From positions 496,001 to 560,000 of the forward strand of contig CAIIXF020000010.1 in assembly GCA_903813345.2 (NCBI GenBank): DNA of 64,000 bases, given 5' to 3'. The position numbers and the translations under genes were made by a program. A model generated the notes under the pieces. That model made no database searches. It saw only the letters and a list, made by a program, of their open reading frames with translations, and was not told where the DNA came from. This document shows, one piece after another, positions 4,719 through 49,261 of this stretch. Source of the DNA: Owenia fusiformis. Taxonomy: Eukaryota; Annelida; Polychaeta; Sabellida; Oweniidae. The stretch's first letter is position 1, and each line of letters begins with the position of its first letter.

Positions 4719-5138
4719 CTTGTTGACTGCAAACTCAACAGCAATCAATCATTTTCATAATTCGTTTTCAAAAGAATTTATTTATTCCCAAAAAGTCAAG
4801 CTAAACTGTTAATAAATAAGAAAAGTGTAAATGTTGCTTCTTTTTATCATCTTCTGTACATTTCAGGAAGTACAACTAGTACAACCACTCTGTTCATATA
4901 TTTCATTTAATATTAATCCAGTCGGCATTCGTTGAACTCCCGTTTTCAAATGCTATAGTATGCTATACTGAGGAACCTTTTCCATTTTTAATGTTAAGCG
5001 TGGTCAGTAATTGGATTACCCTTTTAAAACTTAGCCATTTGACACGTTGACGACCTGATATATTTAAAATCATCCTAAATGCAAAAGGCAGACATGGTAA
5101 CGAATGTTAAATGTCACACATAAAGGCACAATCGTCTC

Positions 5139-5441
5139 TGGGACCAATATGAGTGAATGCAAGGGGGATCAATATGAGTGAATGCAAGGGGGATCAATAT
5201 GAGTGAATGCAAGGGGGACCAATATGAGTGAATGCAAGGGGGATCAATATGAGTGAATGCAAGGGGGATCAATATGAGTGAATGCAAGGGGGACCAATAT
5301 GAGTGAATGCAAGGGGGACCAATATGAGTGAATGCAAGGGGGATCAATATGAGTGAATGCAAGGGGGATCAATATGAGTGAATGCAAGGGGGACCAATAT
5401 GAGTGAATGCAAGGGGGATCAATATGAGTGAATGCAAGGGG
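5139..5441. repeat. 25-bp minisatellite
   Basis: About 12 perfect copies of GATCAATATGAGTGAATGCA plus AGGGG, differing only at GATC/GACC. The order of the two variants suggests duplication of multi-unit blocks. The minus-strand repeat peptide (FTHIGPPCIHSYWSPLHSLI) is a by-product. Confidence 0.95.
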
Positions 5442-5556
5442 TATTCAACACTTTAAATAAATCTATGAATGGCTACTACACTTAGTGCTCATGTATATGC
5501 AAATTATTAGCGTCATAGATCAATGAACATAAGACGAGCATGTGCTCCTGCAGTTG

Positions 5557-6816
5557 TACAACCATTTTGATTGTGACATAGACCATTTTGATTGTGCTTT
5601 ATAACCATTTCAATTATGCTACACAACGACATTGATTGTGCTATACAACCACTTTGATTGTGCTATACAACCACTTTGATCGTGCTATACAACCACTTTG
5701 ATTGTGACATAAACCATTTTGATTGTGCTTTATAACCATTTCAATTATACTACACAACGACATTGATTGTGCTATACAACCACTTTGATTGTGCTATACA
5801 ACCACTTTGATCGTGCTATACAACCACTTTGATTTTGCTATACAACCACTTTGATTGTGCTATACAACCACTTTGATCGTACTATACTACCATTTTGATT
5901 GTGCTATACAACCACTTTGATCGTGCTATACAACCACTTTGATCGTGCTATACAACCACTTTGATCGTGCTATACCACAATTTTGATTGTGCTATACAAC
6001 CACTTTGATCGTGCTACACAACGCTATACAACCACTTTGATCGTGCTACACAACGACATTGATTGTGCTATACAACCACTTTGATTGTGCTATACAACCA
6101 CTTTGATCGTGCTATACAACCACTTTGATTGTGCTATACAACCACTTTGATTGTGCTATACAACCACTTCGATTGTGCTATACAACCACTTTGATTGTGC
6201 TTTATAACTATTTCAATTATGCTACACAAGGACATTGATTGTACTATACAACCACTTTGATTGTGTTATACAACCACTTTGATTGTGCTACACAACGACA
6301 TTGATCGTGCTATATAACCACTTTGATTGTGCTATACTACCACTTTGATCGTGCTATACAACCACGGTGATTGTGCTATACAACCCCTTTGAATGTGCTA
6401 TACAACCACTTTGATTTTACTATAAACCATCTTGATTGTGCTTTATAACCATTTCAATTATGCTACACAACGACATTGATTGTGCTATACAACCACATTG
6501 ATTGTGCTATACAACCACGGTGATTGTGCTATACTACCACGTTGGCTGTGCTATACAACCACTTTGATTGTGCTATACAACCACCTTGATCGTGCTATAC
6601 AACCATCTTGATCGTGCTATACCACCATTTTGATTGTGCTATACAACCACTTTGATTGTGCTATACAACCACTTTGATTGTGCTATACAACCACTTTGAT
6701 TGTGCTATACAACCACTTTGATTTAGCTATACGACCACGTTGATTGTGCTATACAACCACTTTGATTTAGCTATACAACCATGTTGATTGTGCTATAAAA
6801 CCACTTTGATTGTGAT
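5557..6816. repeat. 22-bp minisatellite
   Basis: About 55 diverged copies of GATTGTGCTATACAACCACTTT. A recurring longer pattern (GTGACATA ... TTTATAACCATTTCAATTAT ... CTACACAACGACATTGATTG) marks higher-order blocks near 5,580, 5,705, 6,190 and 6,415. Confidence 0.95.
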
Positions 6817-25000: not shown

Positions 25001-28000
25001 ACGAAATACCCTAGATAATTCCCGGGGATTCATTCTAAATTTTGGCGAAGATTTATATTGGCGAATTTTTCAATTTCGCCAAATTCGCCAAATTAAAGCG
25101 GGCGCCAAATTAACCCAATCTACAGTATTAGGAATTTCTCAACCTTTAACCAGTGAAAGGGTTTGGGTAAACTTACATTTTTTCTCTTTTCCTCTGCTGC
25201 TTTTCTTGCTTGCTCTTCTTTCTCAGCTATCCTTTCTTTAAGAGGCTTCTTTTTCTTCACTTGAATGGCTTTTGGGGCTAAAATAAAAACATTATAATCT
25301 TGGAATAACATTTATCGAACTAGGAGTCACACAAAAGAACAAACAGAAGGTTAGGTTACATATGGTAGTCATACAGTGCCATTATATCATTTGATTCATA
25401 GGATCATTGAGTGTAAAACCAACTACATGACTGATTGCAGATGCTTTGTGTGTTCTACTGTGCATGGTAAAGTATATATTTACTATAGTACTAGTATATT
25501 GTATAGTATAGGATACAGAAAACAAAAGGTGCTCACAAAAACAGGGCCAAGCGTCTATCACCAAACAACCTAACATTAGAGTTTTATGGCAGAGGGGATT
25601 TCAGAACATCAAAGTGTTCTTTCTTACCATATCAGAGCAATTTAACCGCATCTTGTTTTAATGCATACACATTTCTTTCAGATAAATAAAAATATTGTAT
25701 ATATTTGAGATATTAATACATTTAGTTCTACTTCAAACTGCATCTAGAAACAAGTTGACTTTTAATTACTAACCATCATCTTCTGGTTTTTCTTCATCTT
25801 CATCTTCCCAGCTTGCCTACAATGAAAAATATAAAATATACATTTAAAGATTAAAATATACAATGAAATTACTAATTATACAATGAAAGTATAACACTAC
25901 AAAACGGTTAATTTGAATAAGTGACAAATGATTACTTTGAAAGATGTTTGATAGCATAATATTTGTTGAGTGTTTAGAAAGTAAGTTTTGATCCTATACC
26001 ATATAAGGTTTTACAAGGTTTTATAATGGAGCTACAGTTTTATAGCAAAATCAGATTCTTGTCCACAATACAAGTTTCAATTAACAAATTAATTTCTGAT
26101 CTGGTTCACCTTTACCATCCACCTAATAATCAAAAGGTATTGCTACTAATCAGTATATACAGGTAGTCGCTAATCGAATCATGGCCAATGTTACTTGCAA
26201 ATTGTAAAAAGTCAGTGAAAAGAACACAGTTTCTTGCTATTTTTGACATGACATCAGATCTCATGAAAGAACATCAAAAAATGACAATTTCTGACAGGAT
26301 GGAAGTTAAAAACAAATCTACCCACTACAGGCCCGTAGCCAGTGGGGGAGCTGGGGGAGCGGAAGCTCCTCCCCCCCTGGCCAGAAATTCTTTCAAAATC
26401 ATGCAGTTTTTCACCATTCTGAGAATTTTTCCCATGATTTTTAGCCAAAATTGTGAAAAAGCTCCCCCCCCCTGGTAAAAGCTGGCTATGGGCAAGCACT
26501 ACACTTAGCTAATTGGCAGAGACTGAGTGGTCAACAACTCGTATACAAGAACACAAATGTGTACAATATGTCCCCACCTATGGTTGATCCTGTCAAATGG
26601 TTATCCTAAAAATGAGTAGACAAGACTTTACCGACACAATTTGAGGACGGAGAATCCAAAATGGCCACCTTAAAATTTACCAAGAATGCCAAAAAATTAG
26701 TCTAGATTTTCATACTAAGAACCACCCCTGAAAATTTGAAATTGATCCGTCACACAGTTAACCAGAAAACATGTAAACAAGACTTTACAGACAAGATTTG
26801 AGGACAGAAAATCCAAAATGGCTGCCTTGACATTTATCCAGAATGCCAAAAAATAATCTGTTCTAGATTTTCATACTAAGAATCTTTCCTGAAAATTTGA
26901 AATTGATCTACCAAGCAGTTCACCTAAAAACGCATAAACAAAACTTTAAGATTTTAAGACAGAAAATCCAAAATGGCTGCCTTGACATTTATCCAGAATG
27001 CCAAAAAACTAATCAGATCTAGATTTTCATACTGAGAATCATCCCTGAAAATTTGAAACTGATATACCAAATGGTTCACCTGGAAATGTGTAGACAAGAC
27101 TTTACAGACAAGATTTTAGGACGGAAAATCCAAAATGGCTGCCTTGACATTTACCCAGAATGCCCAAAAACTAATCAGTTCTAGATTCTCATACTAAGAA
27201 TCATCCCTGAAAATTTCAAATTGATCTACAAACGGTTCACCTAAAAACGCGTAGACAAAACTTTAAGATTTTAAGACGGAAAATCCAAAATGGCTGCCTT
27301 GACATTTATCCAGAATGCCAAAAAACTAATCAGATCTAGATTTTCATACTGAGAATCATCCCTGAAAATTTGAAATTGATCTACCAAACGGTTCACCTGA
27401 AAATGCGTAGACAAGACTTTACAGACAAGATTTTAGGACGGAAAATCCAAAATGGCTGCCTTGACATTTACCAAGAAAGCCCAAAAACTAATCAGATCTA
27501 GATTCTCATACTAAGAATCATCCCTGAAAATTTGAAATTGATCTACCAAACGGTTCACCTGAAAACGCGTAGACAAGACTTTACAGACAAGATTTTAGGA
27601 CGGAAAAATCCAAAATGGCCGACAATAAAAAAGTGATTATGAGTTTTTGCTGAAATCTTTTTACAAAATTATCACATATAACTACTGTTAACAATAACCT
27701 AGGCTTTTACAACAAAGTACACCTGAAATTATTTATAAAGCTACTAAAAAGTTAAAGTATGAAAACTGAAAAACACCATTCAATATGATACAAAGTATTA
27801 TCGTGCGCTAACTTTTCTTAAAACATTCAAAATGGCTGACATGACGGAGCTAACAGGTCCAAAACCTAATCAGATCTAGAATGAAGTGAGCTGAACAAGA
27901 TGTTAAAGTTTTAAAAGGAACTGTGAAGCCGTTTTTCTTAAAGTTTGCAGACAAGGATTTTAGCATTTGACTTAAAAATGGCCGACAGGAAGTAGGTATC

Positions 28001-30753
28001 GAGTTAATTTTTTTTCATCCACATCTGTATGCACTCATAAGTTATCCCTGAAAATTTGAAGGTGATATCTGTAGCGGTTTTGGAGAAAACTGCCGGATGT
28101 ACGGACGGACAGACGGACAGACAGACGGACAGACAGACAGACGGACAGACAGACGGACAGACGGACGCGCCTAGGCCGACAATATGGCCCCACACTATGT
28201 GGTGGGGACATAAAAAGGCTGTGGTGTGTACTTGAATGTCTGTGAATCCGTGAACATAAAACTATGGCTCCTCCAAGGAGAGGTTTCTGGCTCTGGCTTT
28301 GAGTGTAAAATATGTTAAGTATGGAAATATACTGATAGGGTATTGTTCACCAGAATATGGAGGTAACTATAGTATGTATCCAACAGACTGACTAGAAGTC
28401 AGTCTGTTATGATGTACTACTTTCCTGTGGAAATTGCAGTGAAATTTTTTGCACAATATTATCAATTAGAGGAACCATTTCTTCAATAAAATAAACATTA
28501 CAAAATTTCAATTGAGTAGTAAGGTGCAATTAAATGCAATAAAAAGTAACACAGCATATTGTCAAGTGGAAATAAAGCTAGATGAAGTAACAAATGTGCA
28601 AATTAAGTTTACCCAATCGGCCATTTTGAATAGCACTTCCTATGTAAACAAATATTTAGAATTACCAAACTTTAACAAAGGTGCCTTATAGTCTGAATAT
28701 AAATCAGACTAAATAGGATATAGTCTAGAGGTAACCAAAATACAATGCAACTGATAAAAGAACTCCCATCAAGGAGCAAAAATAAAACAATGAGCTAAAC
28801 AAAAACATCAATTACAAGATAAACAAAGAACTAAAAACCTTCTTAATTAAAACTAAGAGGTTCTAAAAGGCCTGTAGAGAGACAATATATTTCATGTATA
28901 TAAAAGAATTGCCAATGAACTGTACATATATAGATAAGAATTTTAAATAATAAGACAAGGCACAGACGTGAACAATATCGTACCTAAAACACAGCATTGT
29001 GGTCTTGTTGACCAAGAAAGCCGCAGAAAAGTTAATCAGCTCTAGAACTTATCACTGTGTAACATATGTAAAAATTTGAACGGTTTGGCTGGAAACCTGT
29101 AGACAAGTCTTGAAAGTGAAGATTTTAGGACGGAAAATCCAAAATGGCCACCTTAAAATTTACCCAGAATGCCCAAAAACCAATCAGTTCTTGACGCTGA
29201 TATGTAGAAACATCCCTGAAAATTTCAGATGAATCCCTCAAATGGTTTGGCTGAAAATCTGTAGACAAGTCTTGAAAGTGAAGATTTTAGGACGGAAAAT
29301 CCAAAATGGCCACCTTAAAATTTACTCACAATGGCCAAAAACTAATCAGTTCTTGACATTGATACGTAGAAACATCCCTGAAAATTTCAGATGAATCCCT
29401 CAAATGGTTTGGCTGGAAACCTGTAGACAAGTCTTGAAAGTGAAGATTTTAGGACGGAAAATCCAAAATGGCCACCTTAAAATTTAACCAGAATGCCCAA
29501 GAACTAATCAGTTCTTGACGTTGATATGTAGAAACATCCCTGAAAATTTCATATGAATCCCTCAAAAGGTTTGGCTGAAAACCTGTAGACAAGTCTTGAA
29601 AGTGAAGATTTTAGGACGGAAAATCCAAAATGGCCACCTTAAAATTTACCCAGAATGCCCAAAAACTAATCAGTTCTTGACGTTGATACGTAGAAACATC
29701 CCTGAAAATTTCAGATGAATCCCTCAAATGGTTTGGCTGGAAACCTGTAGACAAGTCTTGAAAGTAAAGATTTTAGGACGGAAAATCCAAAATGGCCACC
29801 TTAAAATTTACCCAGATGCCCAAAAACTAATCAGTTCTTGACGTCGATATGTAGAAACATCCCTGAAAATTTCAGATGAATCCCTCAAATGGTTTGGCTG
29901 AAAACCTGTAGAGAAGTCTTGAAAGTGAAGATTTTAGGACGGAAAATCCAAAATGGCCACCTTAAAATTTACCCAGAATGCCCAAAAACTAATCAGTTCT
30001 TGACTTTGATATGTAGAAACATCCCTGAAAATTTCAGATGAATCCCTCAAATGGTTTGGCTGAAAACCTGTAGACAAGTCTTGAAAGTGAAGATTTTAGG
30101 ACGGAAAATCCAAAATGGCCATCTTAAAATTTACCCAGAATGCCCAAAAACTAATCAGTTCTTGACGTTGATATGTAGAAACATCCCTGAAAATTTCAGA
30201 TGAATCCCTCAAATGGTTTGGCTGGAAACCTGTAGACATGCTGAAAAGTGAGACGCCGCCCGCCCGCCCGTCAAGCTGAGTACAATATCGTACCTCTTGT
30301 TAGGTACGATAAAAAAAAAACCAAAAAAATAGAATCTACAAAACACAAGAGCAGCATATAGCAACATCAGTGTAAAGCACCAGAAAAAGAGGATAACCAA
30401 AATAAATCAATATGTTATTTTTTCTAAGTTACCAAACTTCCAGTTTAGTATAGTAGAGAGGATTAATGATGCTGATTGTGTATTAGCTGTAGGCTAAACA
30501 GCGAACATATTGCGCAATATCTTTTGAAAAAATGCCGGCATAAAAACGTGAATAACACTTCCGTACTTTGACGCCTTCCTCGTCTTCACCAACCCACTTG
30601 TCTGTTGGGGCTTTACTGAAATCATCAGGTTCAAAATCATCTGCATCTGGAATAAAAGAACAATTTCCAATTTATTGATCTCATCTACAACACTCACAAA
30701 GAGTAAATATTGAATAAATATGCGAAAATTTGGCGCTAACCCCAGTCTGCCAT
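16054..30753 (-). CDS. EIF3J: Eukaryotic translation initiation factor 3 subunit J, nine coding exons
   Basis: Coding exons in transcript order: 30753-30741, 30646-30567, 25816-25774, 25277-25177, 22966-22858, 20487-20372, 20054-19997, 17109-17036, 16173-16054. All junctions are GT-AG, phases match, and the total is 714 nt (237 aa; human eIF3j is about 258). The N-terminus MADWDADDFEPDDF is the acidic Trp-containing eIF3j motif, which in the family contacts eIF3b. Exon 3 is acidic (ASWEDEDEEKPEDDG). Exons 4-5 form a Lys/Glu-rich coiled coil (KERIAEKEEQARKAAEE, then KLNPEEMAAEKLRLKRQMEE). A helical core follows (FLDDLIRDVTVT), then a Lys-rich linker and the hallmark C-terminus YDDFM. eIF3j helps eIF3 bind the 40S decoding centre and regulates mRNA recruitment in the cytosol. 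Introns 2, 4, 5 and 7 are swollen by transposons. A GGAAAT (ETS-like) site and AAAATGGC around the ATG suggest a housekeeping promoter. UTR limits are not determined. Confidence 0.95.
18270..19930. mobile_element. Large foldback element (EIF3J intron 7)
   Basis: Left arm (about 18,320-18,840) and right arm (about 19,410-19,925) are inverted copies; for example TTGGAACATTTGTTAATTGA with the reverse of TCAATTATCAAATGTTCCAA, and CATTGGAACAAAA-type blocks on both arms. The arms are of the order of 500 bp with moderate divergence. The left end carries CAAAGGATAGGTATCGATAT, the same terminus as the 49.7-kb copy. Exact right end not resolved. Confidence 0.6.
20785..20820 (+). other. tRNA-like 5' fragment inside the piggyBac-like element
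   Basis: TGTAGCTCAGCGGTAGCGC resembles a tRNA D-arm with box A. No box B (GGTTCGA-type) or acceptor 3' half follows, so this is a truncated tRNA or SINE head, not a tRNA gene. Confidence 0.35.
21716..22076. mobile_element. Long copy of a TACCCT...AGGGTA element with 9-bp target duplication
   Basis: A 361-bp element nested in the piggyBac-like one. An exact 9-bp duplication GAGGATAGG flanks it (21707-21715 and 22077-22085), suggesting a Mutator-type transposase in trans. It contains promoter-like sites: CCAAT (21841), ATTGG (21901, 21984), a full CRE TGACGTCA (21925-21932) and TATAAAG (21946-21952). Confidence 0.75.
22349..22661. mobile_element. hAT MITE
   Basis: A 313-bp element with 12-bp terminal inverted repeats CAGAGGCTTAGG, flanked by an exact 8-bp duplication ATCTGATA (22341-22348 and 22662-22669). 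It starts 15 bp beyond the end of the piggyBac-like element. It contains a GGGACCACT ... AGTGGTCCC hairpin near its right end. Confidence 0.85.
23241..23801. mobile_element. hAT-like element with 6-bp duplication (EIF3J intron 4)
   Basis: Terminal inverted repeats CAGCGCTTGCATTA and CAGGGCTTGCATTA (one mismatch), flanked by CATTAA on both sides (23235-23240, 23802-23807). 561 bp, AT-rich, non-coding. Duplication length differs from the usual 8 bp for hAT, so the class is tentative. Confidence 0.6.
23883..23946. mobile_element. Terminal fragment of the foldback family
   Basis: GTTTGAGAGAAAAATGTGTT followed by CCATATCACTACCAATCCTT matches the right terminus of the element ending at 51188. Only this end is recognisable. 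Confidence 0.45.
24660..25125. mobile_element. MITE with long perfect terminal inverted repeats (EIF3J intron 4)
   Basis: Ends CTGTAGATTGGGTTAATTTG and its inverse are a perfect match for about 24 bp. Flanking TATTA occurs on both sides (24655-24659, 25126-25130), which could be a 5-bp or a TA duplication. The interior is rich in TTGGCG/CGCCAA motifs. A minus-strand open frame (25033-24773) has no recognisable domain. It ends about 50 bp from the donor of exon 4. Confidence 0.75.
26329..26494. mobile_element. Short hAT-like MITE with GCCCGTAGCCAG ends
   Basis: GCCCGTAGCCAG at 26331-26342 is inverted as CTGGCTATGGGC at 26482-26493. Flanks CCCACTAC and AGCACTAC share six of eight bases. The interior holds G- and C-runs able to pair (GCTGGGGGAG with CTCCTCCCCC). 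Confidence 0.5.
26567..28212 (+). mobile_element. Pearl/Helentron-associated-type element, copy 1 (EIF3J intron 2)
   Basis: Starts TATGTCCCCACC and ends GGTGGGGACATA. The core has about seven tandem units of about 157 bp, each with GGACGGAAAATCCAAAATGG. A diverged stretch follows, then a tetranucleotide tract of ACGG/ACAG (about 28091-28168). The last 36 bp, ACAATATGGCCCCACACTAT onward, can fold as a terminal hairpin. This order (tandem core, microsatellite, 3' hairpin) matches oyster pearl elements and Helentron-associated INEs. No transposase. Confidence 0.65.
28976..30311 (+). mobile_element. Pearl/Helentron-associated-type element, copy 2 (EIF3J intron 2)
   Basis: Starts TATCGTACCT and ends AGGTACGATA. 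It contains about seven to eight tandem units of about 157 bp homologous to copy 1 (AGGACGGAAAATCCAAAATG, then CCTGAAAATTTCAGATGAAT), a short CCGCCCGCCCGCCCG tract, then ACAATATCGTACCTCTTGTT with a terminal hairpin. Its terminal sequence differs from copy 1 although architecture and core are shared. Confidence 0.65.
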
Positions 30754-33075: not shown

Positions 33076-36000
33076 ATGAGTGGAAGACCAACTTCACGCC
33101 CAAGTGGATCAAGGGGTACCCCAGGAACTGCATGGCAAAAAACAACTGCAAAACCAACCACTGGTGCTAAACCTAAATCTGCTTCTCCAAAAAAGGTTGG
33201 TGTCCAGCTTCTGTAACGGCACAGCAATTGGTGTTTGGTGTCTGTAACAAATTCTTACGGTGTCTGTAACAAATTCTTATGGCATCTGTGACTAATACAT
33301 GGCAGGTGGTGACATTTTGCATGTTAATGCCTTGTTACTTTATTGCTACATGTACATGTTCCACAGAATTATTTTATGAGCATGTGCTTGATTATTTTCA
33401 AGGCTGCAAATAAGGCAGGAACAAGTACTGCATTGGTTCCTAGGAGCAAACAAGGTGCCATAGCAACCAGGAAAGGAATGGCACCTATCCCAATGAAGAA
33501 ACAGGATGGCATGCTTGTACCAGAGGGTGAGGACATACTATGATGTACATTCACTTCATAATACATACATTTACATTTACATAATGAATGTTTATGAATC
33601 AACTGACATAAAGACTATTACCTACATTACATAGGCAATTCATTGCTATAAGATTTTCACAAAATACATGCTAATCCAAGATCAAGAACTAAAACCATTC
33701 CTCCCATCCCATGTTAAAAAATCTTGAATTGTGAAAAACCCCAAATTTTAACAGTGGACAGTCCATGGGCTCTATCATGGGTGGTAAAGCCCACGGACAG
33801 TCTTAATTGGAACATTAATCTCACAAAAATAAACATTTATGAACCCAGACTCTTTGTTTGTTACCTTTTACAGGTTACACTGTGCGTAAGATAGAGCCTG
33901 CCAAGAATTACGACGTAGTGTCATTTGCCCGTGCCATGAATCCGGACTTTGCACCCAGAGTGAAAAAATTGTTTGATCCAGAAAGGGAAGCTGCAATTGC
34001 TGCTCAGAAGTCTGGTAAATCTGTCGACCAAATAAACATTTTGTTGAGTATCATGCAATCATCAGCAATTATTTTCAAATCCTCATTGTGTTCTTGCTGT
34101 TTTTAAAACCATCCAGATTGTATCATTTTTTTTTAAAATTACCTGTTTTTCTCACAATTTCTTGAATGATTTCATATTGTGTGAATATTGAAGACATGTA
34201 CTTTATTTTACAATCATTTTAAATTATTTTTGAAATAACTTGTATTCATATTAATTGTAGGTGTCTACATTGGCTGGAGGTGCCCTGAGTTTACTTGGGA
34301 TTGTCAAAGAGTTAGTTCAATGTCTAAGTGTTTCTGCGGACATCTACTAGGAGAGCACAATTCATACAATGGTAAGTTAAACCATGGGCTTTCAAGAGAG
34401 CTTGAAATACATTATTGATCTTACATGAAAATGTAGTGAAACATTCTACATGGTCAGTATTGGAGACTAAAAGAAAGGAGGTGGGATGGGTATCAGAAAA
34501 CAAGTAAATGAAGGCAAGCCATCATATCACTTATCATACAATTTCTAGTTTATTTGCCAGATAGCTAATTTTATTAAAAACATTCTATGCGTACTTAACC
34601 TTATTTAGAATATCCATTTTACATTACATATACAGTAGTACTATGCAGCATTACATTTTGAATATTATAGGCCATTGTGTTAGAGTCCTCTGCAGACAAC
34701 CAGGCTGTTCCTCTAAAGCATATGTAGCATAACACTTCGATTATTATAGGCCATAGTGTTAGAGTCCCCTGCAAACAACCAGGCTGTTCCTCTAAAGCAT
34801 ACATAACACTTTGATTATTATAGGCCATAGTGTTAGAGTCCCCTGCAGACAACCAGGCTGTTCCTGCAAAGCATATGTAGCATAACATTTTGATTATTAT
34901 AGGCCATAGTGTTAGAGTCCCCTGCAGACAACCAGGCTGTTCCTCTAAAGCATATGTAGCATAACACTTTGATTATTATAGGCCATAGTGTTAGAGTCCC
35001 CTGCAGACAACCAGGCTGTTCCTCTAAAGCATATGTAGCATAACACTTTGATTATTATAGGCCATAATGTTAGATTCCCCTGCAGACAACCAGGCTGTTC
35101 CTCTAAAGCATATGTAGCATAACACTTTGATTATTATTGGCCATAGTGTTAGAGTCCCCTGCAAACAACCAGGCTGTTCCTCTAAAGCATACATAACACT
35201 TTGATTATTATAGGCCATAGTGTTAGAGTCCCCTGCAGACAACCAGGCTGTTCCTCTAAAGCATATGTAGCATAATACTTTGATTATTATTGGCCATAGT
35301 GTTAGAGTCCCCTGCAGACAACCAGGCTGTTCCTCTAAAGCATATGTAGCATAACACTTTGATTATTATAGGCCATAGTGTTAGAGTCCCCTGCAGACAA
35401 CCAGGCTGTTCCTCTAAAGCATATGTAGCATAACACTTTGATTATTATAGGCCATAGTGTTAGAGTCCCCTGCAGACAACCAGGCTGTTCCTGCAAAGCA
35501 TAATATGTAGCTGTAGCATAACACTTTGATTATTATAGGCCATAGTGTTAGATTCCCCTGCAGACAACCAGGCTGTTCCTCTAAAGCATATGTAGCATTA
35601 CACTTTGATTATTATAGGCCATAGTGTTAGAGCCCCCTGCAGACAACCAGGCTGTTCCTCTAAAGCATATGTAGCATAACACTTTGATTATTATAGGCCA
35701 TAGTGTTAGAGTCCCCTGCAGACAACCAGGCTGTTCCTCTAAAGCATATGTAGCATAACACTTTGATTATTATAGGCCATAGTGTTAGAGTCCCCTGCAG
35801 ACAACCAGGCTGTTCCTGCAAAGCATATGTAGCATAACACTTTGATTATTATAGGCCATATTGTTAGAGTCCCCTGCAGACAACCAGGCTGTTCCTCTAA
35901 AGCATATGTAGCATAACACTTTGATTATTATAGGCCATAGTGTTAGATTCCCCTGCAGACAACCAGGCTGTTCCTCTAAAGCATATGTAGCATAACACTT

Positions 36001-39000
36001 TGATTATTATAGGCCATAGTGTTAGAGTCCCCTGCAGACAACCAGGCTGTTCCTCTAAAGCATATGTAGCATTACACTTTGATTATTATAGGCCATAGTG
36101 TTAGAGTCCCCTGCAGACAACCAGGCTGTTCCTCTAAAGCATATGTAGCATAACACTTTGATTATTATAGGCCATAATGTTAGATTCCCCTGCAGACAAC
36201 CAGGCTGTTCCTCTAAAGCATATGTAGCATAACACTTTGATTATTATTGGCCATAGTGTTAGAGTCCCCTGCAAACAACCAGGCTGTTCCTCTAAAGCAT
36301 ACATAACACTTTGATTATTATAGGCCATAGTGTTAGAGTCCCCTGCAGACAACCAGGCTGTTCCTCTAAAGCATATGTAGCATAATACTTTGATTATTAT
36401 TGGCCATAGTGTTAGAGTCCCCTGCAGACAACCAGGCTGTTCCTCTAAAGCATATGTAGCATAACACTTTGATTATTATAGGCCATAGTGTTAGAGTCCC
36501 CTGCAGACAACCAGGCTGTTCCTCTAAAGCATATGTAGCATAACACTTTGATTATTATAGGCCATAGTGTTAGAGTCCCCTGCAAACAACCAGGCTGTTC
36601 CTCTAAAGCATACATAACACTTTGATTATTATAGGCCATAGTGTTAGAGTCCCCTGCAGACAACCAGGCTGTTCCTCTAAAGCATATGTAGCATAATACT
36701 TTGATTATTATTGGCCATAGTGTTAGAGTCCCCTGCAGACAACCAGGCTGTTCCTCTAAAGCATATGTAGCATAACACTTTGATTATTATAGGCCATAGT
36801 GTTAGAGTCCCCTGCAGACAACCAGGCTGTTCCTCTAAAGCATATGTAGCATAACACTTTGATTATTATAGGCCATAGTGTTAGAGTCCCCTGCAGACAA
36901 CCAGGCTGTTCCTGCAAAGCATAATATGTAGCTGTAGCATAACACTTTGATTATTATAGGCCATAGTGTTAGATTCCCCTGCAGACAACCAGGCTGTTCC
37001 TCTAAAGCATATGTAGCATAACACTTTGATTATTATAGGCCATAGTGTTAGAGTCCCCTGCAGACAACCAGGCTGTTCCTCTAAAGCATATGTAGCATTA
37101 CACTTTGATTATTATAGGCCATAGTGTTAGAGTCCCCTGCAGACAACCAGGCTGTTCCTCTAAAGCATATGTAGCATAACACTTTGATTATTATAGGCCA
37201 TAGTGTTAGAGTCCCCTGCAGACAACCAGGCTGTTCCTCTAAAGCATATGTAGCATAACACTTTGATTATTATAGGCCATAGTGTTAGAGTCCCCTGCAG
37301 ACAACCAGGCTGTTCCTCTAAAGCATATGTAGCATAACACTTTGATTATTATAGGCCATATTGTTAGAGTCCCCTGCAGACAACCAGGCTGTTCCTCTAA
37401 AGCATATGTAGCATAACACTTTGATTATTATAGGCCATAGTGTTAGAGTCCCCTGCAGACAACCAAGCTGTTCCTCTAAAGCATATCTAGCATAACACTT
37501 TGATTATTATAGGCCATATTGTTAGAGTCCCCTGCAGACAACCAGGCTGTTCCTCTAAAGCATATGTAGCATAACACTTTGATTATTATAGGCCATAGTG
37601 TTAGAGTCCCCTGCAGACAACCAGGCTGTTCCTCTAAAGCATATGTAGCATAACACTTTGATTATTATAGGCCATTGTGTTAGAGTCCCCTGCAGACAAC
37701 CAGGCTGTTCCTGCAAAGCATAATATGTAGCTGTAGCATTACACTTTGATTATTATAGGCCATAGTGTTAGATTCCCCTGCAGACAACCAGGCTGTTCCT
37801 CTAAAGCATATGTAGCATAACACTTTTATTATTATAGGCCATAGTGTTAGAGTCCCCTGCAGACAACCAAGCTGTTCCTGCAAAGCATATGTAGCTTAAC
37901 ACTTTGATTATTATAGGCCATAGTGTTAGAGTCCCCTGCAGAAAACCAGGCTGTTCCTCTAAAGCATATGTAGCATAACACTTTGATTATTATAGGCCAT
38001 AGTGTTAGAGTCCCCTGCAGACAACCAGGCTGTTCCTCTAAAGCATATGTAGCATTACACTTTGATTATTATAGGCCATAGTGTTAGAGCCCCCTGCAGA
38101 CAACCAGGCTGTTCCTCTAAAGCATATGTAGCATAACACTTTGATTATTATAGGCCATAGTGTTAGAGTCCCCTGCAGACAACCAGGCTGTTCCTCTAAA
38201 GCATATGTAGCATAACACTTTGATTATTATAGGCCATAGTGTTAGAGTCCCCTGCAGACAACCAGGCTGTTCCTGCAAAGCATAATATGTAGCTGTAGCA
38301 TTACACTTTGATTATTATAGGCCATAGTGTTAGATTCCCCTGCAGACAACCAGGCTGTTCCTCTAAAGCATATGTAGCATAACATTTTGATTATTATAGG
38401 CCATTGTGTTAGAGTCCCCTGCAGACAACCAGGCTGTTCCTGCAAAGCATATCTAGCATAACACTTTGATTATTATAGGCCATATTGTTAGAGTCCCCTG
38501 CAGACAACCAGGCTGTTCCTCTAAAGCATATGTAGCATAACACTTTGATTATTATAGGCCATAGTGTTAGAGTCCCCTGCAGACAACCAGGCTGTTCCTC
38601 TAAAGCATATGTAGCATAACACTTTGATTATTATAGGCCATAGTGTTAGAGTCCCCTGCAGACAACCAAGCTGTTCCTCTAAAGCATATGTAGCATAACA
38701 CTTTGATTATTATAGGCCATAGTGTTAGAGTCCCCTGCAGACAACCAGGCTGTTCCTGCAAAGCATATGTAGCATAACACTTTGATTATTATAGGCCATA
38801 GTGTTAGAGTCCCCTGCAGATAACCAGGCTGTTCCTCTAAAGCATATGTAGCATAACACTTTGATTATTATAGGCCATAGTGTTAGAGTCCCCTGCAGAC
38901 AACCATGCTGTTCCTCTAAAGCATATGTAGCATAACACTTTGATTATTATAGGCCATAGTGTTAGAGTCCCCTGCAGACAACCAGGCTGTTCCTCTAAAG

Positions 39001-42000
39001 CATATGTAGCATAACACTTTGATTATTATAGGCCATAGTGTTAGAGTCCCCTGCAGACAACCAGGCTGTTCCTCTAAAGCATATGTAGCATAACACTTTG
39101 ATTATTATAGGCCATAGTGTTAGAGTCCCCTGCAGACAACCAGGCTGTTCCTCTAAAGCATATGTAGCATAACACTTTGATTATTATAGGCCATAGTGTT
39201 AGAGTCCCCTGCAGACAACCAGGCTGTTCCTCTAAAGCATATGTAGCATAACACTTTGATTATTATAGGCCATAGTGTTAGAGTCCCCTGCAGACAACCA
39301 GGCTGTTCCTCTAAAGCATATGTAGCATTACACTTTGATTATTATAGGCCATAGTGTTAGAGTCCCCTGCAGACAACCAGGCTGTTCCTCTAAAGCATAT
39401 GTAGCATTACACTTTGATTATTATAGGCCATAGTGTTAGAGTCCCCTGCAGACAACCAGGCTGTTCCTCTAAAGCATATGTAGCATAACACTTTGATTAT
39501 TATAGGCCATAATGTTAGAGTCCCCTGCAGACAACCAGGCTGTTCCTGCAAAGCATAATATGTAGCTGTAGCATAACACTTTGATTATTATAGGCCATAT
39601 TGTTAGAGTCCCCTGCAGACAACCAGGCTGTTCCTCTAAAGCATATGTAGCATTACACTTTGATTATTATAGGCCATAGTGTTAGATTCCCCTGCAGACA
39701 ACCAGGCTGTTCCTCTAAAGCATATGTAGCATTACACTTTGATTATTATAGGCCATAGTGTTAGAGTCCCCTGCAGACAACCAGGCTGTTCCTCTAAAGC
39801 ATATGTAGCATTACACTTTGATTATTATAGGCCATAGTGTTAGAGTCCCCTGCAGACAACCAGGCTGTTCCTCTAAAGCATATGTAGCATAACACTTTGA
39901 TTATTATAGGCCATAATGTTAGAGTCCCCTGCAGACAACCAGGCTGTTCCTGCAAAGCATAATATGTAGCTGTAGCATAACACTTTGATTATTATAGGCC
40001 ATATTGTTAGAGTCCCCTGCAGACAACCAGGCTGTTCCTCTAAAGCAAATGTAGCATAACACTTTGATTATTATAGGCCATAGTGTTAGAGTCCCCTGCA
40101 GACAACCAGGCTGTTCCTCTAAAGCATATGTAGCATAATACTTTGATTATTATTGGCCATAGTGTTAGAGTCCCCTGCAGACAACCAGGCTGTTCCTCTA
40201 AAGCATATGTAGCATAACACTTTGATTATTATAGGCCATAGTGTTAGAGTCCCCTGCAGACAACCAGGCTGTTCCTCTAAAGCAAATGTAGCATAACACT
40301 TTGATTATTATAGGCCATAGTGTTAGAGTCCCCTGCAGACAACCAGGCTGTTCCTCTAAAGCATATGTAGCATAATACTTTGATTATTATTGGCCATAGT
40401 GTTAGAGTCCCCTGCAGACAACCAGGCTGTTCCTCTAAAGCATATGTAGCATTACACTTTGATTATTATAGGCCATAGTGTTAGAGTCCCCTGCAGACAA
40501 CCAGGCTGTTCCTCTAAAGCATATGTAGCATAACACTTTGATTATTATAGGCCATAGTGTTAGAGTCCCCTGCAGACAACCAGGCTGTTCCTGCAAAGCA
40601 TATCTAGCATAACACTTTGATTATTATAGGCCATATTGTTAGAGTCCCCTGCAGACAACCAAGCTGTTCCTCTAAAGCATATGTAGCATAACACTTTGAT
40701 TATTATAGGCCATAGTGTTAGAGTCCCCTGCAGACAACCAGGCTGTTCCTGCAAAGCATATCTAGCATAACACTTTGATTATTATAGGCCATATTGTTAG
40801 AGTCCCCTGCAGACAACCAAGCTGTTCCTCTAAAGCATATGTAGCATAACACTTTGATTATTATAGGCCATATTGTTAGAGTCCCCTGCAGACAACCAAG
40901 CTGTTCCTCTAAAGCATATGTAGCATAACACTTTGATTATTATAGGCCATAGTGGTAGAGTCCCCTGCAGACAACCAGGCTGTTCCTCTAAAGCATATGT
41001 AGCATAACACTTTGATTATTATAGGCCATTGTGTTAGAGTCCCCTGCAGACAACCAGGCTGTTCCTGCAAAGCATATGTAGCATAACACTTTGACTATTA
41101 TAGGCCATAGTGTTAGAGTCCCCTGCAGACAACCAGGCTGTTCCTCTAAAGCATATGTAGCATAACACTTTGATTATTATAGGCCATAGTGTTAGATTCC
41201 CCTGCAGACAACCAGGCTGTTCCTCTAAAGCATATGTAGCATTACACTTTGATTATTATAGGCCATAGTGTTAGAGTCCCCTGCAGACAACCAGGCTGTT
41301 CCTCTAAAGCATATGTAGCATTACACTTTGATTATTATAGGCCATAGTGTTAGAGTCCCCTGCAGACAACCAGGCTGTTCCTCTAAAGCATATGTAGCAT
41401 AACACTTTGATTATTATAGGCCATAGTGTTAGAGTCCCCTGCAGACAACCAGGCTGTTCCTGCAAAGCATAATATGTAGCTGTAGCATAACACTTTGATT
41501 ATTATAGGCCATAGTGTTAGAGCCCCCTGCAGACAACCAGGCTGTTCCTCTAAAGCATATGTAGCATAACACTTTGATTATTATAGGCCATAGTGTTAGA
41601 GTCCCCTGCAGACAACCAGGCTGTTCCTGCAAAGCATAATATGTAGCTGTAGCATTACACTTTGATTATTATAGGCCATAGTGTTAGATTCCCCTGCAGA
41701 CAACCAGGCTGTTCCTCTAAAGCATATGTAGCATTACACTTTGATTATTATAGGCCATAGTGTTAGAGTCCCCTGCAGACAACCAGGCTGTTCCTCTAAA
41801 GCATATGTAGCATAACACTTTGATTATTATAGGCCATAGTGTTAGAGTCCCCTGCAGACAACCAGGCTGTTCCTCTAAAGCATATGTAGCATAACACTTT
41901 GATTATTATAGGCCATAGTGTTAGAGTCCCCTGCAGACAACCAGGCTGTTCCTCTAAAGCATATGTAGCATAACACTTTGATTATTATAGGCCATAGTGT

Positions 42001-45000
42001 TAGAGTCCCCTGCAGACAACCAGGCTGTTCCTCTAAAGCATATGTAGCATTACACTTTGATTATTATAGGCCATAGTGTTAGAGTCCCCTGCAGACAACC
42101 AGGCTGTTCCTCTAAAGCATATGTAGCATAACATTTTGATTATTATAGGCCATAGTGTTAGAGTCCCCTGCAGACAACCAGGCTGTTCCTCTAAAGCATA
42201 TGTAGCATTACACTTTGATTATTATAGGCCATAGTGTTAGAGTCCCCTGCAGACAACCAGGCTGTTCCTCTAAAGCATATGTAGCATAACACTTTGATTA
42301 TTATAGGCCATAGTGTTAGAGTCCCCTGCAGACAACCAGGCTGTTCCTGCAAAGCATATCTAGCATAACACTTTGATTATTATAGGCCATATTGTTAGAG
42401 TCCCCTGCAGACAACCAAGCTGTTCCTCTAAAGCATATGTAGCATAACACTTTGATTATTATAGGCCATAGTGTTAGAGTCCCCTGCAGACAACCAGGCT
42501 GTTCCTGCAAAGCATATCTAGCATAACACTTTGATTATTATAGGCCATATTGTTAGAGTCCCCTGCAGACAACCAAGCTGTTCCTCTAAAGCATATGTAG
42601 CATAACACTTTGATTATTATAGGCCATAGTGTTAGAGTCCCCTGCAAACAACCAGGCTGTTCCTCTAAAGCATATGTAGCATAACACTTTGATTATTATA
42701 GACCATAGTGTTAGAGTCCCCTGCAGACAACCAGGCTGTTCCTCTAAAGCATATGTAGCATTACACTTTGATTATTATAGGCCATAGTGTTAGAGTCCCC
42801 TGCAGACAACCAGGCTGTTCCTCTAAAGCATATGTAGCATAACACTTTGATTATTATAGGCCATAGTGTTAGAGTCCCCTGCAGACAACCAGGCTGTTCC
42901 TCTAAAGCATATGTAGCATAACACTTTGATTATTATAGGCCATAGTGTTAGAGTCCCCTGCAGACAACCAGGCTGTTCCTCTAAAGCATATGTAGCATAA
43001 CACTTTGATTATTATAGGCCATAGTGTTAGAGTCCCCTGCAGACAACCAGGCTGTTCCTCTAAAGCATATGTAGCATAACACTTTGATTATTATAGGCCA
43101 TAATGTTAGATTCCCCTGCAGACAACCAGGCTGTTCCTCTAAAGCATATGTAGCATAACACTTTGATTATTATAGGCCATAGTGTTAGAGTCCCCTGCAG
43201 ACAACCAAGCTGTTCCTCTAAAGCATATGTAGCATAACACTTTGATTATTATAGGCCATAATGTTAGATTCCCCTGCAGACAACCAAGCTGTTCCTCTAA
43301 AGCATATGTAGCATAACACTTTGATTATTATAGGCCATAGTGTTAGAGTCCCCTGCAGACAACCAGGCTGTTCCTGCAAAGCATATCTAGCATAACACTT
43401 TGATTATTATAGGCCATAGTGTTAGAGTCCCCTGCAGACAACCAGGCTGTTCCTCTAAAGCATATGTAGCATAACACTTTGATTATTATAGGCCATAGTG
43501 TTAGAGTCCCCTGCAGACAACCAGGCTGTTCCTGCAAAGCATATCTAGCATAACACTTTGATTATTATAGGCCATAGTGTTAGAGTCCCCTGCAGACAAC
43601 CAGGCTGTTCCTCTAAAGCATATGTAGCATAACACTTTGATTATTATAGGCCATAGTGTTAGAGTCCCCTGCAGACAACCAGGCTGTTCCTCTAAAGCAT
43701 ATCTAGCATAACACTTTGATTATTATAGGCCATAGTGTTAGAGTCCCCTGCAGACAACCAGGCTGTTCCTCTAAAGCATATGTAGCATAATACTTTGATT
43801 ATTATAGGCCATAGTGTTAGAGTCCCCTGCAGATAACCAGGCTGTTCCTCTAAAGCATATGTAGCATAACACTTTGATTATTATAGGCCATAGTGTTAGA
43901 GTCCCCTGCAGACAACCAGGCTGTTCCTGCAAAGCATAATATGTAGCTGTAGCATAACACTTTGATTATTATAGGCCATATTGTTAGAGTCCCCTGCAGA
44001 CAACCAGGCTGTTCCTCTAAAGCAAATGTAGCATAACACTTTGATTATTATAGGCCATAGTGTTAGAGTCCCCTGCAGATAACCAGGCTGTTCCTCTAAA
44101 GCATATGTAGCATAACACTTTGATTATTATAGGCCATAGTGTTAGAGTCCCCTGCAGACAACCAGGCTGTTCTTGCAAAGCATAATATGTAGCTGTAGCA
44201 TAACACTTTGATTATTATAGGCCATATTGTTAGAGTCCCCTGCAGACAACCAGGCTGTTCCTCTAAAGCAAATGTAGCATAACACTTTGATTATTATAGG
44301 CCATAGTGTTAGAGTCCCCTGCAGACAACCAGGCTGTTCCTCTAAAGCATATGTAGCATAACACTTTGATTATTATAGGCCATAGTGTTAGAGTCCCCTG
44401 CAGACAACCAGGCTGTTCCTCTAAAGCATATCTAGCATAACACTTTGATTATTATAGGCCATAGTGTTAGAGTCCCCTGCAGACAACCAGGCTGTTCCTC
44501 TAAAGCATATGTAGCATAACACTTTGATTATTATAGGCCATAGTGTTAGAGTCCCCTGCAGACAACCAGGCTGTTCCTGCAAAGCATATCTAGCATAACA
44601 CTTTGATTATTATAGGCCATATTGTTAGAGTCCCCTGCAGACAACCAAGCTGTTCCTGCAAAGCATATGTAGCTTAACACTTTGATTATTATAGGCCATA
44701 GTGTTAGAGTCCCCTGCAGAAAACCAGGCTGTTCCTCTAAAGCATATGTAGCATAACACTTTGATTATTATAGGCCATATTGTTAGAGTCCCCTGCAGAC
44801 AACCAGGCTGTTCCTCTAAAGCATATGTAGCATTACACTTTGATTATTATAGGCCATATTGTTAGAGTCCCCTGCAGACAACCAGGCTGTTCCTGCAAAG
44901 CATATGTAGCATAACACTTTGATTATTATAGGCCATAGTGTTAGAGTCCCCTGCAGACAACCAGGCTGTTCCTCTAAAGCATATGTAGCATAACACTTTG

Positions 45001-48000
45001 ATTATTATAGGCCATAGTGTTAGAGTCCCCTGCAGACAACCAGGCTGTTCCTCTAAAGCATATGTAGCATTACACTTTGATTATTATAGGCCATAGTGTT
45101 AGAGTCCCCTGCAGACAACCAGGCTGTTCCTGCAAAGCATATCTAGCATAACACTTTGATTATTATAGGCCATAGTGTTAGAGTCCCCTGCAGACAACCA
45201 GGCTGTTCCTCTAAAGCATATGTAGCATAACACTTTGATTATTATAGGCCATAGTGTTAGAGTCCCCTGCAGACAACCAGGCTGTTCCTCTAAAGCATAT
45301 GTAGCATAACACTTTGATTATTATAGGCCATAGTGTTAGAGTCCCCTGCAGACAACCAGGCTGTTCCTCTAAAGCATATGTAGCATAACACTTTGATTAT
45401 TATTGGCCATAGTGTTAGAGTCCCCTGCAGACAACCAGGCTGTTCCTGCAAAGCATATCTAGCATAACACTTTGATTATTATAGGCCATAGTGTTAGAGT
45501 CCCCTGCAGACAACCAGGCTGTTCCTCTAAAGCATATGTAGCATAACACTTTGATTATTATAGGCCATAGTGTTAGAGTCCCCTGCAGACAACCAGGCTG
45601 TTCCTCTAAAGCATATGTAGCATAACACTTTGATTATTATAGGCCATATTGTTAGAGTCCCCTGCAGACAACCAGGCTGTTCCTCTAAAGCATATGTAGC
45701 ATAACACTTTGATTATTATAGGCCATAGTGTTAGATTCCCCTGCAGACAACCAGGCTGTTCCTGCAAAGCATATCTAGCATAACACTTTGATTATTATAG
45801 GCCATAATGTTAGAGTCCCCTGCAGACAACCAGGCTGTTCCTGCAAAGCATAATATGTAGCTGTAGCATAACACTTTGATTATTATAGGCCATATTGTTA
45901 GAGTCCCCTGCAGACAACCAAGCTGTTCCTCTAAAGCATATGTAGCATAACACTTTGATTATTATAGGCCATAGTGTTAGAGTCCCCTGCAGACAACCAG
46001 GCTGTTCCTGCAAAGCATATCTAGCATAACACTTTGATTATTATAGGCCATAGTGTTAGAGTCCCCTGCAGACAACCAGGCTGTTCCTCTAAAGCATATG
46101 TAGCATAACACTTTGATTATTATAGGCCATATTGTTAGAGTCCCCTGCAGACAACCAGGCTGTTCCTCTAAAGCATATGTAGCATAACACTTTGATTATT
46201 ATTGGCCATAGTGTTAGAGTCCCCTGCAGACAACCAGGCTGTTCCTCTAAAGCATATGTAGCATAACACTTTGATTATTATAGGCCATATTGTTAGAGTC
46301 CCCTGCAGACAACCAGGCTGTTCCTCTAAAGCATATGTAGCATAACACTTTGATTATTATAGGCCATAGTGTTAGAGTCCCCTGCAGACAACCAGGCTGT
46401 TCCTCTAAAGCATATGTAGCATAACACTTTGATTATTATAGGCCATAGTGTTAGAGTCCCCTGCAGACAACCAGGCTGTTCCTCTAAAGCATATGTAGCA
46501 TAATACTTTGATTATTATTGGCCATAGTGTTAGAGTCCCCTGCAGACAACCAGGCTGTTCCTCTAAAGCATATGTAGCATAACACTTTGATTATTATAGG
46601 CCATATTGTTAGAGTCCCCTGCAGACAACCAGGCTGTTCCTGCAAAGCATATGTAGCATAACACTTTGATTATTATAGGCCATAGTGTTAGAGTCCCCTG
46701 CAGACAACCAGGCTGTTCCTCTAAAGCATATGTAGCATTACACTTTGATTATTATAGGCCATATTGTTAGAGTCCCCTGCAGACAACCAAGCTGTTCCTC
46801 TAAAGCATATGTAGCATAACACTTTGATTATTATAGGCCATAGTGTTAGAGTCCCCTGCAGACAACCAGGCTGTTCCTCTAAAGCATATGTAGCATAACA
46901 CTTTGATTATTATAGGCCATAGTGGTAGAGTCCCCTGCAGACAACCAGGCTGTTCCTCTAAAGCATATGTAGCATTACACTTTGATTATTATAGGCCATA
47001 GTGTTAGAGTCCCCTGCAGACAACCAGGCTGTTCCTCTAAAGCATATGTAGCATAACACTTTGATTATTATAGGCCATAGTGTTAGAGTCCCCTGCAGAC
47101 AACCAGGCTGTTCCTCTAAAGCATATGTAGCATTACACTTTGATTATTATAGGCCATAGTGTTAGAGTCCCCTGCAGACAACCAGGCTGTTCCTCTAAAG
47201 CATATGTAGCATAACACTTTGATTATTATATGCCATAGTGTTAGAGTCCCCTGCAGACAACCAGGCTGTTCCTCTAAAGCATATGTAGCATTACACTTTG
47301 ATTATTATAGGCCATAGTGTTAGAGTCCCCTGCAGACAACCAGGCTGTTCCTCTAAAGCATATGTAGCATAACACTTTGATTATTATAGGCCATAGTGTT
47401 AGAGTCCCCTGCAGACAACCAGGCTGTTCCTGCAAAGCATTTGCCTGGATTCCTTCTAGACCAGAGGAAATAGGAGAGTTCTGGTTTGCAAGGAGAAGAG
47501 ACTTTGATCCTGAGGCCTGGAGGGCTAAATGTAGATGTAAGCACACACATGAGGACCATGATCCAAATGGTATGAGGAGGTGCAAAATGAGAGGTGAGTA
47601 ATGGTATGGTGTATGAGGAGGTGAAAAATGAGAGGTACATGTTTATTGTATTGTAAGGAGGAGGTGTAAAATAAGGTGCATGTTCATGAATTTTTATGCA
47701 GAATCTAAAAATGAGAGATGTTGATGCTTATTTAATGTTATTGAGGTTATGGGAGGTAGATATTTACATTGTATTATTAGATGGCTTTGATCATGTAGAT
47801 CTCTGTTTGAAAAACATGGTACTTATTGTAAAGCAAGTTTTCAGTACAACATTATTAAATCAGTCCTATATTTTGAATACACATACAGTACATTTACAGT
47901 AACGTACATGTAAATCTGACAACTAACAAACTTGTTGTAGGTTGTGGGTGCAGTGTCTTTGACTCTCCATTCTTGTGTGCTGCATGTGACCAACATTGGG

Positions 48001-49261
48001 AAGTTCATGAAACATTTTTTGAAACTGAGTCAATGAGGCGAGACAAGGGACTACCCTATGGTATGTTGTAATAATATTGATTTTGACAAATGACTACCAT
48101 ATGGTATGTTGTAATAATATTGATTTTGACAAATGACTACCCTATGGTATGTTGTAATAATATTGATTGTGACAAAGGACTACCATATGTTATGTTTTAA
48201 TAATATTGATTTTGACAATGATCTACCATATCATTATGTTATGTTGCAATATTATTGAATGTGACAAAGGACTACCATAATGGTATGTTGTAAAAATATA
48301 TTTTGACAAATGGCTACCATATGGTATATTTTAGTTCAGAGGGGGAGAAACACCAGGGTTCAAAGATGACATACGCTTATAATGTAAATCTGTATTGAGA
48401 TGACATCGTCGCTGATTGGTCAAAAGTCGACAAACAAATGACGTCATCAATGGCGGTTTCAAAGTTTTCGAAATACGCTTCGAATAATATTATGTTAATT
48501 TCTGGCGTGTTAACCAATATCATAGCTTCTCATTACACATCAAGATAAAGAAAGGTGTACGGAATATGCCTATATCAATAAAACATCCCATCGAAGTGTA
48601 GTTTTGATAAATAGCCGATGAAAATTCGAACGAACGAAGGTGGTAAGCAAGAGACGTAATTATGTCTGTCATCTTTAAACTCCTCTTGTTTTAGTTACAT
48701 TGAATGTTGTTGTATTATTGATTTCGACAAATGACTACCATATGGTATGTTGTAATAATATTGATTGTGACAAATGGCTACTATATGGTATGTTGTTATA
48801 ATATTGATTGTGACAAAGGACTGCCTTATGGTATGTTGTAATTATAATGTTGACTGTAACAAAGGACTATTATATGGTATGTTGTAATTATAATGATGAC
48901 TGTAACAATGGACTGTCGTAATCAAATTGATTGTGACAAAGGACTCTATATAGGGTACTCTATATTGTTACATGTACTTTGTATAATAATATTGTAGATT
49001 TACATGCATTGTAAATTGTATATGTTCCCTGTACCTCCAGGTGAGGAGTACTTACCATTCCACGAGATGCCAGAATTACGCAACATTGTCCTAACAGGGG
49101 AGGAGACTGATGATTCTGTGTACCGTGCCCTGACTGAGGGGGAGGGTGCTATACCACATACCAATGTTAGGGCCATTGCTGATAATAATACACCATTCTC
49201 ATTTGGAGGAGGGGGAAGGGGTGGTGGGAGATCAGGAGGATTTAGACCAACTTATGATTAG
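33076..49261 (+). CDS. FAM221B: FAM221B-like cysteine-rich protein, seven coding exons
   Basis: Coding exons: 33076-33195, 33403-33526, 33874-34014, 34261-34371, 47390-47593, 47941-48060, 49041-49261. Phases agree throughout (1041 nt, 346 aa). Residues 1-80 are a low-complexity Ser/Pro/Lys/Thr region. The conserved part starts at EGYTVRKIEPAKNYDVVSFA and continues through YIGWRCPEFTWDCQR, CFCGHLLGEHN, VPCRQPGCSCKAF, IPSRPEEIGEFWF, CRCKHTHEDHDP and FLCAACDQHWEVHETFFETE, matching the FAM221B family. The Cys/His clusters look like metal-binding knuckles. The C-terminus is Gly/Arg-rich (GGGGRGGGRSGGF), unlike the vertebrate protein as I know it. The family's function is not established; human FAM221B is testis-biased. 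Intron 4 (13.0 kb) is nearly all satellite derived from exon 5's own acceptor junction, and intron 6 holds repeats of exon 6's donor junction. The start is the first in-frame ATG; upstream UTR exons cannot be excluded. Confidence 0.93.
34643..47389 (+). repeat. 79-bp satellite array in FAM221B intron 4, built from the exon 5 acceptor junction
   Basis: Unbroken head-to-tail array. Each unit reads about 30 bp ending in TTTGATTATTATAG, then about 49 bp beginning GCCATAGTGTTAGAGTCCCC and running to AAAGCAT. The same junction, in register, is the true acceptor and first codons of exon 5 (AG at 47388-47389; then GHSVRVPCRQPGCSCKA with the G from exon 4). The first AG/GCC junction is at 34670/34671 and the real one at 47389/47390, 12,719 bp apart. 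By eye there are 11 long units (88 bp, AATATGTAGCTGTAGC variant) and 4 short units (74 bp), which gives 160 monomers. Most units change TCC TGC to TCC TCT, and all reach an in-frame TAA (GTA GCA TAA) a few codons later. Open frames read from the minus strand are artefacts of the repeat. Confidence 0.95.
48043..48336 (+). repeat. 43-bp tandem repeats copying the exon 6 donor junction, left block
   Basis: The exon 6 end GACAAGGGACTACCCTATG, the donor GTATGT and the following TTGTAATAATATTGATTTT recur immediately at 43-bp spacing (GTATGT at 48061 and 48104, and onward) for about six to seven increasingly diverged units. Each unit is about 19 bp of exon 6 plus 24 bp of intron 6. The first unit is the real splice junction. 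The block is interrupted at 48337 by a hAT-like insertion. Confidence 0.88.
48337..48688. mobile_element. hAT-like non-autonomous element splitting the intron 6 repeat array
   Basis: A 352-bp non-repeat block is flanked by identical 8-bp copies of TTTTAGTT (48329-48336 and 48689-48696). Its ends are CAGAGGGGGAG and, inverted, CAAGAGGAGTT, resembling hAT termini; the inverted match is imperfect. No coding sequence. Confidence 0.55.
48697..48960 (+). repeat. 43-bp donor-junction repeats, right block
   Basis: The same unit resumes after the insertion: GATTTCGACAAATGACTACC, ATATGGTATGTTGTAATAA and variants, about five to six copies, more diverged than the left block (TTATAATG and CTATATAG changes). 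It fades before the acceptor of exon 7 at 49040. Confidence 0.8.

Follow-up and report, generated by a model that had tools for sequence, protein, structure and literature searches.

How can splicing find the start of an exon when that start, acceptor included, has been copied 160 times into the intron ahead of it? The question is raised by a predicted FAM221-family gene of the annelid Owenia fusiformis, which lies in a 64,000-nt stretch of contig CAIIXF020000010.1 (assembly GCA_903813345.2, positions 496,001 to 560,000, forward strand). This whole stretch is called the window here, and coordinates refer to it unless another sequence is named. Intron 4 of the gene holds a minisatellite whose unit is the gene's own intron 4/exon 5 splice junction. 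The array is real and is an extreme example of a repeat type that is known, though not widely; we consider it probable that it belongs with the junction-spanning minisatellites called mirages in amphioxus and is tolerated through exon definition.

The exon boundaries of the gene are predictions placed from the reading frame and splice signals. Its seven coding exons (33076-49261, +) begin with an ATG at 33076 and comprise exon 1 (33076..33195), exon 2 (33403..33526), exon 3 (33874..34014), exon 4 (34261..34371), exon 5 (47390..47593), exon 6 (47941..48060) and a last coding exon that includes the stop (49041..49261). Joined, they give 1041 nt in a single open frame of 346 aa with one terminal stop, and the protein matches the Pfam family FAM221 (PF14753) at E 1.3e-23 in a profile search. 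Exon 4 closes with the donor ACAATG/GTAAGTTA (slashes mark junctions), which scores 4.5 in the simple home-made weight scheme used for all splice scores. Intron 4 measures 13,018 bp (34372..47389), about 268 bp of which precede the first array unit. The true exon 5, of 204 nt, has its first 51 nt in common with the array and reads on in frame past the last array junction up to its donor, TGAGAG/GTGAGTAA after 47593, the highest-scoring (5.1) of the gene's six donors.

In Tandem Repeats Finder (TRF), the array appears as a single 79-bp repeat of 161.0 copies (34642-47440; 95% matches, score 23055). A count centred on acceptors finds 161 junctions, the first at 34671 and the last, the true one, at 47390. 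Both results together define a forward-strand minisatellite at 34640..47440 with 161 units, of which 160 carry decoy acceptors and one the true acceptor, filling about 12.7 kb of the intron. Each unit spans the exon-intron boundary, as expected of a mirage, with 28 nt of intron end followed by 51 nt of exon 5 start; the homology of the decoys to exon 5 covers 51 nt in 156 of the 160 and 50 nt in the remaining four. Successive junctions are spaced by 79 bp (145 cases), 88 bp (11) or 74 bp (4), and no clear higher-order periodicity was found among the units (mean of 3.93 differences at the best lag, 4.44 overall). Every extra copy is intronic, because only the last one runs into the rest of exon 5. 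Most of what the initial annotation had proposed for this locus is upheld by these results, namely a gene of the FAM221 family (FAM221B in that annotation), a monomer made from its own 3' splice junction, about 160 acceptor-like junctions, and a real exon that continues from the last of them. Its division of the unit into roughly 30 bp of intron and 49 bp of exon becomes 28 and 51, and the end that it assigned to the satellite, 47593, is the end of exon 5, the array stopping at 47440.

Near the acceptor, nothing was found that marks the true site. The AG is retained in 149 of the 160 decoys, again as in mirages, where many units keep the splice signal. Identity to the true unit extends over positions -20 to +3 in 115 decoys, over -30 to +40 in 54, and across the whole 79 bp in 16. 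The score of the true acceptor, 4.3, is shared by 141 decoys, the rest being four that score higher, four that score lower and 11 without an AG. With 115 decoys the same over 23 nt, the local acceptor signal alone cannot identify the true site. Furthermore, the AG has not been lost preferentially (position -2 varies in 10 of 160 decoys and position -1 in one, against at least 13 for each of eight other columns), so that there is no sign of decoy purging. Recursive splicing sites were ruled out, since no AG/GT ratchet occurs at any of the 161 acceptors, all of whose 23-mers end in GCC or ACC.

The true site is marked instead by its downstream exon and donor. A strong donor lies 204 nt 3' of the true acceptor, whereas among the 747 GTs of the array the best donor score is 1.7, which does not reach the weakest of the gene's six true donors (2.2 to 5.1). 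Because the true acceptor alone has a strong donor downstream and the GTs of the array provide none, exon definition is the likeliest cause of the decoys being ignored. Splicing factors would recognise the exon-5 donor together with the last acceptor and pass over the other units as half-exons. By frame reading, joining exon 4 to any of the decoys (160 of 160) gives an early stop, at residue index 46-67 (product read from exon 4 onwards), as against 218 through the true site. Selectively the array is likely to be near-neutral. Its cost would be a long intron and, from time to time, splicing to one of the nearest decoys, with an early stop as the result. The initial annotation had left splicing with the choice of ignoring the decoys or using them; the early stops predicted for all 160, together with the lack of an array donor scoring like the gene's own, lean towards ignoring.

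Several points weigh against this account. It is drawn from genomic sequence only, and its splice scores come from home-made weights, not from a trained model. Four decoys slightly outscore the true acceptor, three at 4.4 and one at 5.6. If one of the three nearest decoys were paired with the true donor, the resulting exon would measure 283, 362 or 441 nt, a length at which exon definition could still work, and alone it does not fully exclude these decoys. Neither can it be the whole story for the repeats at the exon-6 donor described below, whose decoy donors lie 3' of the true one. Finally, the order of steps in the origin of the array, a single duplication and then exchange, is one that we infer.

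It is important to consider that this intron amounts to a natural experiment on splice-site choice, with 115 copies of one acceptor, identical from -20 to +3, in a single intron. Models based on local signals cannot choose among identical acceptors, while exon definition predicts the last one. The array would offer a clean way of testing to what extent acceptor choice can be directed by the downstream exon on its own.

Among the alternatives, the one that survives best holds that the decoys are used meaningfully, as a brake: transcripts spliced to a decoy would stop early and be degraded, and the length of the array would tune the output of the gene. The retention of AG in 149 decoys, the 141 that score as the true site, the four that score higher and the early stop that follows from every one of them would all fit such a role. 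However, no array GT reaches the score of any real donor in this gene, the decoy AG shows neither conservation nor a bias towards loss, and published mirages are reported to splice normally in the text drawn on from PMC3087553. We consider the brake unlikely.

It is improbable as well that the array is real but of a size inflated or collapsed by assembly. Near-identical 79-bp units across 12.7 kb are hard to assemble, and the sequence is that of a single haplotype at assembly level; the array nevertheless contains many unit variants in three length classes, without a clear higher-order period, and sits inside a contig of 37.5 Mb. We give still less credence to the idea that exon 5 starts elsewhere, or that the gene is a pseudogene, in which case the decoys would never compete. 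The gene model is a prediction from sequence alone, and an exon-by-exon search of the genome for FAM221 listed four paralogue exons at C10:30.36 Mb but not the gene of the window, presumably because its single exons are too weak for such a search. Against this stand seven exons with splice signals, an open frame of 346 aa and the FAM221 match at E 1.3e-23, which make the idea very unlikely.

The chance position of a conventional satellite family at exon 5, suggested by the satellite-like size of the array, has almost no probability left, given that the unit contains the gene's own exon start and that a 37-base unit pattern, allowed no more than three mismatches, matches the 498-Mb genome 161 times (161 forward, 0 reverse) and the window just as often, 161 times between 34665 and 47384. 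Because these two counts are equal, the array is single-locus at this threshold; the genome search thus answers the concern, raised in the initial annotation, that the 79-mer might be a genome-wide satellite with copies at many loci.

Concerning the origin of the array, a 79-bp segment that joins the last bases of intron 4 to the initial 51 nt of exon 5 would have been duplicated in tandem. Unequal exchange or gene conversion would then have multiplied and homogenised the copies until they numbered 161, and intron 4, once about 0.3 kb long, would have reached 13 kb. A first duplication mediated by microhomology, at a GCAT shared by exon and intron, had been suggested initially, and this was rejected. 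At the joint between units, the exon reads ...AAAGCAT and is followed by ATGTAGC..., where the true exon goes on TTGCC; the intron ahead of the first unit reads ...GTACTATGCAGC (GTACT/ATGCAGC), and a single base, T, is common at the breakpoint.

The units were compared over the ungapped core from -20 to +51, as whole-unit distances are blurred by fixed cut points. The first unit (34640..34721, +), at the 5' edge of the array, has the most divergent core, with five substitutions from the consensus, and the other 159 decoys have 0-4. The true unit, at the opposite edge, has two substitutions, both within a TGC codon. The array thus shows the homogenised interior and divergent edge unit of a mirage by a small margin (5 vs 0-4), which is the pattern expected if exchange homogenises the interior. 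At the codon in question (+42 to +44), the true exon has TGC, and the decoys have TCT (129 of 160) or TGC (31 of 160) with no intermediate, the TGC units being dispersed along the array. Either the exon was copied late into the array or units were exchanged with the exon, in either direction. It is possible, though we hold it only tentatively and think it rather doubtful, that the first 51 nt of exon 5 are still in the recombination pool of the array and evolve in concert with the 160 intronic copies. These copies would then be a reservoir of mutations checked only by selection. Individuals would differ in the length and composition of the array, with possible effects on the protein sequence as well as on the output of the gene. 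If this were true, the two-base change from TGC to TCT, Cys to Ser, carried by 129 decoys, would be an example.

Two donor junctions of the same gene are also repeated. The exon-5 donor junction is duplicated at 47570..47636 (+) over 26 nt, 96% identical at a spacing of 41, with a decoy donor after 47634; its self-repeat score is 23 against a maximum of 12 in 200 shuffles, and use of the decoy donor would give an early stop at index 107 (true 218). At the exon-6 donor junction, TRF finds a tandem repeat of a 43-bp unit in 6.5 copies (48042..48327, +), and a second block with units of 43-46 bp lies about 370 bp further on (48699..48914, +). The donor site itself, ATG/GTATGT, has seven further copies in these blocks. 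Extending exon 6 to any of six later unit positions, which were placed by hand and start with GT in only two cases, gave an early stop (index 148 vs 218). The approximately 370 bp between the blocks (48327-48699) is other sequence, as if an element had been inserted into the array.

In the FAM221 paralogue, two of the matched exons, 456 bp apart, apparently flank the corresponding intron. TRF detects a 133-bp repeat there on one strand only and not on the other (1.9 copies, 76% matches). A 40-bp array with a 56-bp variant (C10:30365587-30365848, reverse-complement positions 1250-1511, TRF) reaches the predicted acceptor TTGTAG/AATTGT and includes about 6 nt of the exon.

To see junction repeats in a wider context, P450 genes were sampled at 14 loci drawn from 106 matches. 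These include related paralogues (e.g., L013/L018/L019, L009/L017 and L016/L020) and are thus not independent. Before the count, 10 open reading frame rows that were transposable-element-like, belonged to second genes or were decoy copies were removed by hand, and a rule removed shadow frames. The 56 non-first exons gave 54 tested acceptors, one having no AG candidate and one falling below a score of -1, and 56 donors were tested, with junctions placed by the home-made score and some of them doubtful. Junction-spanning repeats occur at three of the 14 loci. L013 has an acceptor repeat of a 96-bp unit with three decoys (5045-5342, gene-strand), and L020 a donor repeat with seven further copies of the motif, four with an exon tail (5475-6170, gene-strand). 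L009 has a donor repeat at 144-bp spacing with two further copies, one without GT (8590-8890, gene-strand); this donor closes the last exon in the locus, lies outside the 56 tested and was found via coding repeats.

Local direct repeats of at least 40 bits were present at 143 of 840 random intron points, compared with two of the 54 acceptors, a single one of the 56 donors and one exon centre out of 70. Acceptor matches at any score numbered three, and only that at L013 5342 is clear; the one at L013 4605 is chance-like (22.6 bits), and at L019 6524 the array was judged by eye to end a short way before the real junction. The sample thus gives no support to the idea that repeats target junctions, random intron points falling in repeats more often than junctions do. 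With repeats so frequent in the introns of the sample, no such targeting is required, and those repeats that happen to catch a junction can persist because the true exon stays intact. At the class III ADH locus (L001, L002; C9:33407000-33419000), no TRF array spans a junction. This locus carries an apparent tandem duplication of about 5 kb, with the same TRF arrays at an offset of about 4973 bp.

Elsewhere in the window, two arrays of a related 162-bp unit, at 26594-27619 (6.4 copies) and 29082-30238 (7.1 copies), share stretches such as GGACGGAAAATCCAAAATGG and look derived from a dispersed element. A 22-bp minisatellite, for which periods of 44 and 66 bp were also called, covers 1258 bp at 5557-6814, and an open frame of 347 aa at 55535-56578 (-) matches the RING finger PF13639 at E 6.2e-12. 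The genome also contains a haemoglobin-linker-type gene, supported by three Eryth_link_C matches that pass the cut-off, the best at E 5.0e-7. For one of its exons, of 63 aa, the best PDB match is a haemoglobin linker (E 0.0025), the other four linker matches having E 0.1-0.4, and an LDL-A-like stretch was recognised by eye in L021. To our knowledge, haemoglobin linkers are confined to annelids. The large contigs are numbered up to C12, ten of them measuring 31.9-62.2 Mb, which suggests a chromosome number of 12. Searches of the genome gave no match to COX1 and none to GFP, the latter a weak negative in that control genomes yielded no GFP match either.

Repeats in introns or at exon boundaries have been described in several animals, and the accounts used here are partial texts of the papers cited. 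In the earthworm metallothionein gene, intron repeats occur and duplicated fourth exons are absent from the transcript (PMC12783039). Like the Owenia gene, it belongs to an annelid, has minisatellites in its introns and contains exon copies that go unused, but the text drawn on describes no splice-junction-derived monomer. A limited literature search found no report of mirages or other junction-spanning repeats in annelids. Human variable internal tandem repeats also involve minisatellite expansion at exon-intron boundaries, which can change gene structure (PMC2812944). However, as described there, they are short (mean 30-bp units, 4 repeats), lie in segmental duplications and are connected with new introns and altered transcripts.

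The closest likeness is to the mirages of amphioxus, named in Adh3, first described by Canestro et al. 2002 (as cited in PMC3087553), and later reported in the globins BflGb6 and BflGb9, TnC and PGBD5 (PMC3087553, PMC3902484). According to the same partial texts, they do not disturb regular splicing. As in the Owenia gene, splice signals survive in many of their units, acceptors as well as donors are affected, and the edge unit is the most divergent. Length polymorphism and somatic instability are further marks of mirages. The published arrays are small: BflGb6 has 6 and 3 units in two haplotypes (PMC3087553), BflGb9 has one duplicate, and PGBD5 has an imperfect triplication of 108 bp (PMC3087553, PMC3902484). 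The 161 copies and 12.7 kb found here exceed the largest copy number given, 6, by about 27-fold, a comparison that leaves out Adh3 and TnC, for which the texts give no copy number. The initial annotation had called satellites seeded from an exon boundary unusual; this is overstated, since the kind is described in amphioxus and recurs in this genome. Mirages appear not to be peculiar to amphioxus, and the Owenia array suggests that they can far exceed the few copies of the published cases and can bring the beginning of a coding exon into a minisatellite's recombination pool.

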